Shown piece after piece: positions 17,715-31,409 of a stretch of 35,138 nucleotides of DNA. This DNA comes from Halieaceae bacterium (GTDB lineage Bacteria; Pseudomonadota; Gammaproteobacteria; Pseudomonadales; Halieaceae): contig JABHWT010000279.1 in NCBI GenBank assembly GCA_018657645.1, positions 1 through 35,138 of the forward strand, read 5' to 3'. The notes under the pieces were generated by a model. The model did no database searches and was not told the origin of the DNA. It worked only from the letters and a program-made list of their open reading frames with translations. Every line of letters begins with the position of its first letter. Position 1 is the first letter of the stretch. A program made the translations under genes and the position numbers.

Positions 17715-17949
17715 AGCCCCTTCTCTCCTGCTAATAAATATACAATCCTCCAGTCTGGTGCTAGGGCTTGATCAATGCAAGTGCATTCACCGCAACCAGG
17801 CCTCGCTTTAACGTCTAGTGCGCAAACAACATCCATCCACAAACCTGCCGCAGTGAATAAATGTCAACACACCAATTAGTGCCCATCCGAGATTGAAGAA
17901 ATGCGCTGCCCTGTGCCATAGTATGCAACCCTGACAGTAGGAGAGTTAC

Positions 17950-29084: not shown

Positions 29085-30989
29085 ATGATATTGTTACGCC
29101 TCGACTCAGTTGCTCTCCACTACGGCACCCAGGTGCTCCTCGACGATGTCGATTTCACTATCAGTAAAGGAGACAAAGTGGGCCTGCTGGGCCGCAACGG
29201 CGTTGGTAAAACAACGCTATTGAAGGTTCTGGCAGGCGATATTCTACCTGAGTCCGGAGAACACTGGATACGTCCAGGCATTCGGATGACCTGGTTGCAA
29301 CAAACCCTGCCGCCCGGGGATGAACAAACCGTTTATCAAGTTGTCTCCAGCGGTCTGGCCGAAGCAGGTCACCTGCTCAACGAATACCACCAGCTATTGC
29401 AGGCAGATGATTTTAGCGACATGGAAGCGCTATCTCGCACCCAGGCAAAGCTGGAGGCTGTCGACGGATGGCAGTTACAACAGCGCGTTGACACTGTTAT
29501 CAGCCAATTACAACTGCCAGGCGACGCCCTTATGAAAGAGCTATCGGGTGGCTGGCGCCGTCGCGTTGCCCTGGCTCAAGCCCTGGTTGGCCAGCCCGAC
29601 ATTCTGCTGCTCGATGAGCCCACCAATCATCTGGATATTCCTGCAATCCATTGGCTGGAGGAGCAGCTTCGCAATTTCAACGGCGCGATTGTTCTTATTA
29701 CCCACGACCGACGCTTCCTGCAAAATGTGGCCAATACTATTGCCGAACTGGACCGGGGCCACCTCACGCAGTGGCGAGGAAACTACCAGGGTTTTCTTCG
29801 CTTTCGCGAGCAGCAGCAACTGGCCGAGGAGCGCGCCAACGATCTGTTTGATAAGAGGCTCGCCCAGGAGGAAGTCTGGATTCGTCAGGGCATTAAGGCT
29901 CGTCGCACTCGCAACGAAGGGCGGGTTCGAGCCTTGAAGGCTATGCGGTCGGAGCGGAATGCGCGCAGGGAACGTATTGGCAACGCCACATTTGCCGCAG
30001 AGCAGGGAAGCAAGTCTGGCAAGATCGTCGCCGAGCTCAAAGATGTCGGTCACCAGTTTGGAGACACCCGAATTGTTAGTCACTTCTCCACGATTATCCA
30101 GCGCGGTGACCGAATTGGCATTGTCGGTGCAAACGGTGCCGGCAAAACCACATTGGTAAAGATTTTATTGGGCGAACTGAAGCCGGATTCTGGCACTGTA
30201 AAATTAGGCAGCAAGCTGGAACTGGCGTACTCCGACCAGCTTCGCACCCACCTTGACCCGGATAAAAATCTGATTGATAACATTTGCGGAGGACGGGAGT
30301 TTGTCGAAATCAACGGCAAGGCCCGCCATGCAATCTCTTATCTCGGTGACTTTCTGTTTACTCCCGAGCGAGTACGGTCACCGGTAAGAGCCCTGTCTGG
30401 CGGTGAGCAAAACAGAGCAATTCTCGCAAAGCTATTCAGTAAGCCCGCCAATTTGTTGGTGCTGGACGAACCTACTAATGATCTGGATATAGAAACCCTC
30501 GAGCTGCTGGAAGAAATTTTACTGTCTTTCCAAGGCACCGTTTTACTGGTTAGCCACGACCGGGATTTTATGGACAACGTGGTCACCAACCTTATCGTGG
30601 TAGAGGGCAATGGTGTGGTCAGCGAACATGCCGGCGGTTACAGTGACTGGGAGGCGCGTGGTGGTCAATTAATGGATATCCAGACCCAGGTACCTGCCGC
30701 GGTAGAACGGGACAAGACCGCCACGAACCCCCCCCAAAAAACCGGCACCACCGAGGGCAAGCGCAAACTCTCCTTTAAAGAACAGCGCGAACTTGAGAGC
30801 CTGCCAGGGCAGATAGAAGCACTGGAACAGCGCCAACAGGTACTGGAAGAATGCATGTCACAGCCGGGTTTCTATCAGTCCGATCACAATGAGGTACAAC
30901 GGGTAACAAGCGAGCTCGGCCTTATTCAGGAACAAATGGAAACCGCGTTTGAACGCTGGACAGCGCTCGAAGAGGAATCAAATCAATAG
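29085..30989 (+). CDS. uup: ABC-F family ATPase Uup
   Basis: Two ABC domains (GRNGVGKTTLL, LSGGWRRR; GANGAGKTTLVK, LSGGEQNRA), LLLDEPTNHLDI, and C-terminal coiled coil (KRKLSFKEQRELESLPGQIEALEQ). Confidence 0.93.
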   Translation: MILLRLDSVALHYGTQVLLDDVDFTISKGDKVGLLGRNGVGKTTLLKVLAGDILPESGEHWIRPGIRMTWLQQTLPPGDEQTVYQVVSSGLAEAGHLLNEYHQLLQADDFSDMEALSRTQAKLEAVDGWQLQQRVDTVISQLQLPGDALMKELSGGWRRRVALAQALVGQPDILLLDEPTNHLDIPAIHWLEEQLRNFNGAIVLITHDRRFLQNVANTIAELDRGHLTQWRGNYQGFLRFREQQQLAEERANDLFDKRLAQEEVWIRQGIKARRTRNEGRVRALKAMRSERNARRERIGNATFAAEQGSKSGKIVAELKDVGHQFGDTRIVSHFSTIIQRGDRIGIVGANGAGKTTLVKILLGELKPDSGTVKLGSKLELAYSDQLRTHLDPDKNLIDNICGGREFVEINGKARHAISYLGDFLFTPERVRSPVRALSGGEQNRAILAKLFSKPANLLVLDEPTNDLDIETLELLEEILLSFQGTVLLVSHDRDFMDNVVTNLIVVEGNGVVSEHAGGYSDWEARGGQLMDIQTQVPAAVERDKTATNPPQKTGTTEGKRKLSFKEQRELESLPGQIEALEQRQQVLEECMSQPGFYQSDHNEVQRVTSELGLIQEQMETAFERWTALEEESNQ

Positions 30990-31022: not shown

Positions 31023-31409
31023 CACCAATTAGTGCCTATCCAGATGACCGGCCCCTCGGAAATGGCTAGGCTCAATGCGAAGGCTGTGAAGGTTAGCTGT
31101 TTTGGACACCTTTGAGCCCGCTAAGCGGAGGCCTGTTTTCAGGGGTTGGAGGCACATGGATGTGCCGGATGGCCGGCCCCCGAAAAGCCTTGCCGCGCAG
31201 GGACGCGCGTCAAGGCGGGCCCGTGAAAACTGGCTGTAGCGAGGGAAGCCGAAGGCCGGGCGATGGTTTCCAAAACAGCTAACCTTTGCAGCCGTCTCCA
31301 ATGTTTAGTGAAAAACGAAGCATTTCCACGGGCCGGACATCCGAGGGGCCGGCCATCCGAGGGGCCGGCCATCCGAGGGGCCGGCCATCCGGATGGACAC
31401 TAATTAGAG
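31023..31409. repeat. Nested inverted-repeat non-coding element with CANGGANG hairpins and a 16-bp tandem repeat
   Basis: Outer arms 31023-31046 and 31386-31409 match 19/24 in inverse orientation; inner arms 31082-31110 and 31265-31293 match 26/29; central hairpins at 31151-31166 and 31187-31216. Confidence 0.8.
31329..31392. repeat. Tandem repeat, about four units of 16 bp (GGGGCCGGCCATCCGA)
   Basis: Units at 31329-31344, 31345-31360, 31361-31376, 31377-31392; units 2 and 3 identical, ends degenerate. Confidence 0.9.

Follow-up and report, generated by a model that had tools for sequence, protein, structure and literature searches.

Organization of the uup/aminotransferase junction

The window (the whole stretch of 35,138 nucleotides analyzed here) carries a uup gene with its stop at 30989 and, convergent with it, an aminotransferase gene with its stop codon at 31404-31406 (TTA on the plus strand). 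The whole region between the two genes is a nested palindrome. The outer inverted repeat pairs 31027-31060 with 31372-31405 (34 nt, 88% complementary), the inner one pairs 31079-31110 with 31265-31296 (32 nt, 88% complementary), and the segment 31043-31060 pairs inversely with three tandem partners. The computed folding energy was -224 kcal/mol for one strand (-170 in shuffled sequences, z -9.15) and -222 kcal/mol for the other (-164 in shuffled sequences, z -9.13), and in neither case did any of 100 shuffles equal it. A chance palindrome is ruled out by these z-scores together with the dispersed copies described below. The best borders of the element are 31025-31407 including direct repeats, or 31033-31399 without them, and the stop codon of the aminotransferase falls inside the right terminus (Table 1).

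The first-pass annotation had described the region as nested inverted repeats with no credible coding sequence and with the aminotransferase stop in the right terminus, all of which was borne out; the open reading frames inside the element are short and spurious. The borders given there, 31023-31409, capture the element with slightly shifted limits. A simple terminator, already disfavored in that annotation, was rejected, since neither a T-run nor a terminator-like site (GC hairpin followed by a T-run) was found in the region. No promoter-like site was found in the region either.

Table 1. Features of the element copy at the uup/aminotransferase junction (positions in the window).
Feature	Position	Strand	Basis
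Left copy of presumed target-site duplication, CCAATTAG	31025..31032	.	Sequence; direct-repeat test over 14 elements, p = 0.011
Left outer terminal repeat TGCCTATCCAGATG (family consensus TGCCCATCCRGAAA)	31033..31046	+	Sequence; inverted-repeat and family comparison
Left GC-rich unit CCGGCCCCTCGG, pairs with right tandem array	31047..31060	+	Inverted-repeat search
Inner arm, 5' side of outer RNA stem	31079..31110	+	Inverted repeat; 28/28 pairs of stem covary
Core, type-A TwoAYGGAY-like structured RNA, R1 span	31083..31292	+	Covariance model R1, 206.6 bits (window copy was in R1 training set)
Conserved joining segment, 5' side (family GAGCYCGCCGAGCGG)	31113..31128	+	Alignment
Inner stem, 5' side	31129..31145	+	Alignment, covariation
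Hairpin 1, GGCAC-AUGGAU-GUGCC, CsrA/RsmA-type GGA hexaloop	31151..31166	+	Sequence; GGA in 32/32 aligned copies
15-nt insert ATGGCCGGCCCCCGA, resembles outer GC-rich unit	31169..31183	.	Alignment; inverted pairs I5-I7
Hairpin 2, apical CGCGC-AGGGAC-GCGCG, second GGA loop	31187..31216	+	Sequence; GGA in 32/32
Inner stem, 3' side	31220..31235	+	Alignment, covariation
Conserved joining segment, 3' side (GCGAGGGAAGCCGAAGGCCGGGCGA), with small GCC-GGC hairpin	31239..31263	+	Alignment, covariation
Inner arm, 3' side	31265..31296	+	Inverted repeat
Tandem array of GGGCCGGCCATCCGAG, right side, 16 bp, 3.9 copies	31330..31391	.	Tandem-repeat search
Right outer terminal repeat CATCCGGATGGACA	31386..31399	+	Sequence, inverted repeat
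Right copy of presumed duplication, CTAATTAG; overlaps aminotransferase stop 31404-31406	31400..31407	.	Sequence; direct-repeat test

The 15-nt insert between the two hairpins is present in the window copy alone among the aligned copies. Elsewhere in the window, a lone outer-end sequence (CCAATTAGTGCCCATCC, 17872-17888) lies upstream of a gene and is a probable relic of this family of elements.

Copies in the genome

The element is a high-copy dispersed repeat. In its own genome (a MAG of 5.4 Mb in 491 contigs, 89% complete), a search with the element, as proposed in the first-pass annotation, gave 68 match pieces that map to about 40 places, with 80-96% identity in the main ones. Full-length matches measure about 240-320 bp each and are flanked by different genes. 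The 20-base inner arm had 60 matches, versus none for the reversed pattern used as control. The end of a contig truncates at least 16 copies, so the true copy number is probably higher. In two loci (L003 and L020) the core is turned around with respect to the outer sequence and the inner palindrome is lengthened, an inversion between the inner arms.

The same search against relatives, also proposed there, returned short or weak matches in 3 of 38 genomes and no close copy in any of them. An origin from a plasmid or phage was rejected, as the element had no blastn match in plasmids or phages and no pattern match in viral contigs. Pattern matches in Verrucomicrobia and Uhrbacteria (L164 and L169, with no R1 match, and L172, weak) were judged to be unrelated GC-rich repeats.

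The core as a TwoAYGGAY-type RNA

In its predicted fold, the core has long arms leading to a junction and two GGA-loop hairpins, and it groups with the known TwoAYGGAY-type structured RNAs (Rfam RF01731, clan CL00106, curated cut-off 43 bits). The window copy scored 19.1 bits, below the cut-off, probably owing to its 15-nt insert. Sister copies in the same genome exceeded the cut-off (C420, 44.1; C134, 44.0; C389, 43.6 bits), as did the type-A copies L132 and L134 and four order-level loci (L207, L210, L211 and L213). A survey with RF01731 found matches in 16 of 29 genomes, 10 of them above the cut-off, and in none of 14 control genomes.

Of the two loops in the window, AUGGAU fits AYGGAY, and AGGGAC is ANGGAY, with G instead of Y. 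Among 32 aligned copies, loop 1 reads AUGGAY in 24 and AGGGAU in six, and in the remaining two it is interrupted by an insert after GGA; loop 2 is mostly AGG(G)AC. GGA occurs in all 64 loops, each closed by C-G. As a separate observation, a 24-nt module (GAGCCTGCCCCG...CGGGT) directly follows the loop GGA in hairpin 1 of L003 and L022 and also in L060, L056 and L072; the module is shared by different repeat families and by two species, as though loops had been swapped like cassettes.

In the same alignment, 54 of 72 pairs have changed on both sides and 97.0% of cells are paired. The covariation score was 0.546, versus 0.150 in shuffled and at most 0.127 in slid controls; the alignment was made with the model and so leans to structure, and the contrast with the controls goes far beyond that. 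Unpaired columns are 0.89 identical, versus 0.68 for the outer arms. A covariance model of the core (R1), trained on 16 copies plus one distant relative, detected type-A cores within the family in 16 of 140 genomes; across the order it did so in 23 of 392, about half of them multi-copy. Core-type RNAs in other genera have kept the loops and joining segments, and their stems have been rewritten by compensatory change. In one genome (G144), each copy has its own arms, nearly perfectly self-complementary, and in the general TwoAYGGAY matches of relatives the arms likewise differ from place to place; they span roughly 20-30 bp and most are perfect. The arms of these repeats are rapidly rewritten, yet always self-complementary. 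These comparisons show the core structure to have been conserved through compensatory change.

The large structured RNA suggested in the first-pass annotation thus gains support from the Rfam matches and the strong covariation, and the covariance-model search that it recommended recovered conserved structure in other genomes. Against the refuting case named there, an element found solely here with no structural conservation, stand about 40 copies and a covarying core. In other families of the order, the type-A RNA is followed immediately on its 3' side by a second conserved hairpin (e.g., CTTTTGGTTACTTT...AAAAGTAACTCGCC) at 7 of 11 loci (L207, L208, L210-L213 and L216); this hairpin matched no Rfam family at cut-off.

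Orthologous junctions

Of 29 genomes, 24 yielded the aminotransferase gene, and uup is its convergent neighbor in 10 loci, including the one in the window. In six genera (G003, G011, G012, G014, G015 and G016) the junction is empty, the two stops lying 7-71 bp apart; the first-pass annotation had proposed a search for such empty sites. In the congener G002, the junction measures 121 bp and holds another TwoAYGGAY-like hairpin, different from the one in the window, whose 28-bp arms are perfect and whose loops are of the same two kinds. G013 has its own foldback elements at the junction; the junction has therefore been occupied independently.

TwoAYGGAY-like elements lie at this junction in three genera, as might be expected of a vertically inherited intergenic RNA specific to the uup/aminotransferase pair. 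However, the junction elements differ in type and are unrelated in sequence, most genera have none, and roughly 40 very similar copies at other places in the genome already contradict such an RNA, which we consider extremely improbable.

Outer ends and a second repeat family

The outer ends have the form CTAATTAG-TGCCCATCC...GGATGGGCA-CTAATTAG, with TGCCCATCC as the inverted termini. The same ends bracket a second set of repeats, family B, with quite different interiors (L051, L055, L060 and L061) and at least 40 places in the same genome; they also occur as near-empty, end-to-end palindromes (L057, L059 and L062). Matches of family B modules to microRNA families were ordinary hairpin matches below the cut-off.

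When the outer 8-base flanks of the two ends were compared over 14 elements, direct matches numbered 89 of 112, versus 81.5 expected (p = 0.011), a result to be read with the small sample and a preferred target that is nearly palindromic; the inverse match of the same flanks was not above expectation (p = 0.82). The approximately 8-bp CTAATTAG-like repeat is the pattern that a target-site duplication would give, and it is presumed to be one. With their inverted termini and this repeat, the outer ends look MITE-like, and the element has two further traits of MITEs in its terminal inverted repeats and its many dispersed non-coding copies. No transposase with these ends was seen among the loci fetched for end-pattern matches in this fragmented assembly. 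Mobility, as first suggested for this palindrome from its sequence, is supported by terminal anatomy and by distribution, namely the dispersed copies and the empty orthologous junctions.

Genomic placement

Placement was analyzed for 17 copies in the element's own genome and 28 TwoAYGGAY loci in relatives, with genes predicted by an iterated codon-model caller. Convergent junctions outnumbered divergent ones 22 to 4 (p about 0.001 to 0.004; background 7:6 in the window and 89:65 over all loci). This bias, the very stable hairpin on both strands and the different hairpin at the same junction in the congener would all suit a two-way 3'-end signal for convergent genes (a transcription barrier or an RNase-resistant message end) in which the GGA loops are incidental. 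Such a signal seems improbable to us: the T-run or terminator-like site is missing, six genera do without the element at junctions of 7-71 bp, the strict conservation of the GGA loops is left unexplained, and the convergent bias may simply reflect selection against insertion near promoters.

Between tandem genes, the GGA strand was sense in all five sites of the own genome; in relatives it was sense in five and antisense in six, with no strand preference. Taken together, these sites show no strand rule. A single type-A copy occupies the metK-ahcY gap in nine genomes of three genera (g38, g2 and g11; L134-L140, L141 and L143), sense to ahcY wherever both genes are readable, and is possibly an ahcY leader RNA. 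Two other TwoAYGGAY elements lie in the metK-ahcY gap of G001 (L072), and rpiA, another recurrently occupied site, adjoins TwoAYGGAY-like elements in two genera (L146 in G074 and L149 in G002).

Template switching can homogenize the arms of inverted repeats. The elements could accordingly be purely selfish foldback DNA, with hairpins and GGA loops recognized by machinery that copies single-stranded DNA and with compensatory changes arising from arm-arm conversion in replication rather than from RNA function. The high copy number and the breakage of the assembly, the tandem sites of relatives with no strand preference, the exchange of loop modules between different repeat families and the possible homogenization of arms all fit this explanation. 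It nevertheless appears unlikely, since conservation is highest in the unpaired loops and the joining segments, a pattern that arm conversion leaves unexplained, and since the single, consistently oriented copy at metK-ahcY looks like retention.

Relation to CsrA

The TwoAYGGAY RNA was first described computationally in 2010 (PMC2864571). It carries a CsrA motif, and CsrA binding was predicted in 2014; such motifs come in pairs because CsrA is a dimer (PMC4333381). No experimental test of this prediction was found in the open-licence papers searched. The arrangement seen here is of the CsrA type, with GGA in the loops of short hairpins (64 of 64 loops) and with paired sites, and the two hairpins look like candidate docking sites that CsrA would bind. 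A csrA gene is present in the congener G002 and in 34 of 38 relatives. It was not seen in the own assembly, and its region was probably not assembled, because the adjacent lysC is missing as well; a real loss of CsrA is unsupported for the same reason, and the absence is uninformative.

Proposed explanation

The explanation that we favor, with moderate confidence, is that the element in the window is one copy of a high-copy, non-coding, MITE-like foldback element with a TwoAYGGAY-type RNA as passenger, a putative history of movement and a putative CsrA role. It draws directly on the dispersal, the absence at orthologous junctions, the inverted ends shared by two families, the compensatory change and the GGA loops. 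Beyond these, we infer transposition machinery, transcription, CsrA binding and an effect, in the following manner. A transposase supplied in trans would once have moved the element via its TGCCCATCC ends, and insertion would have duplicated an 8-bp CTAATTAG-like target, here at the aminotransferase stop codon. Read-through from uup, on the strand bearing the GGA loops, would give the message a very stable hairpin at its 3' end. Together, the two GGA hairpins could then offer a paired docking site for one CsrA/RsmA dimer, which might protect or control that message in cis, and many copies summed might titrate CsrA. Several findings count against this proposal: the tandem sites in relatives are divided five to six, though RNA function should give a strand preference; no transposase with these ends and no promoter-like site was found; the window copy scores 19.1 bits against RF01731 and has an AGGGAC loop; and csrA was unseen in the assembly.

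A further, tentative suggestion, which we regard as rather doubtful, is that a mobile element connects CsrA/RsmA to the genome, its foldback copies carrying paired CsrA sites to the ends of genes. This raises the possibility that the targets of a global regulator are spread by a mobile element. If true, each insertion would be a new CsrA target, each burst would enlarge the pool of competing sites, and the system would be a bacterial counterpart, at the RNA level, of transposons that spread regulatory sites. With TwoAYGGAY forming the conserved core of a repeat that is high-copy and looks mobile, many natural copies become testable at once.

Comparison with known systems

The core family is already known; the new part, as far as the open-licence papers searched show, is its packaging in a high-copy foldback element with shared ends, of which they gave no earlier description. 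Like RF01731, the core has two neighboring GGA hexaloop hairpins, closed by C-G, inside an outer stem, with sister copies at 43.6 to 44.1 bits. Unlike it, the core contains an inner stem and additional conserved joining segments, occurs in about 40 copies in one genome and is enclosed by transposon-like ends; the copy in the window bears its 15-nt insert and scores 19.1 bits. The CsrA-sequestering small RNAs CsrB, RsmY and RsmZ likewise have repeated ANGGA-loop hairpins in pairs, but they are single-copy, regulated small-RNA genes with many sites, whereas here there are two sites per copy in many dispersed copies, and a promoter was not found.

Like MITEs, the element is short and non-coding, with inverted ends, many copies and a presumed target duplication; unlike them, its autonomous partner was not found, and passengers of different sequence share the same ends. 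REP/BIME sequences moved by RAYT are also dispersed intergenic palindromes at gene 3' ends, but the element here is much longer. A RAYT-driven REP was rejected, as the sole Y1 transposase gene of the genome (PF01797, on C378) is flanked by other repeats (TTTGGGGTCAGAG). At C378:4404-4727 (L050 in G000), this single Y1/RAYT-like gene lies between TTTGGGGTCAGAGTAAAAACTC repeats, which constitute a separate repeat family.
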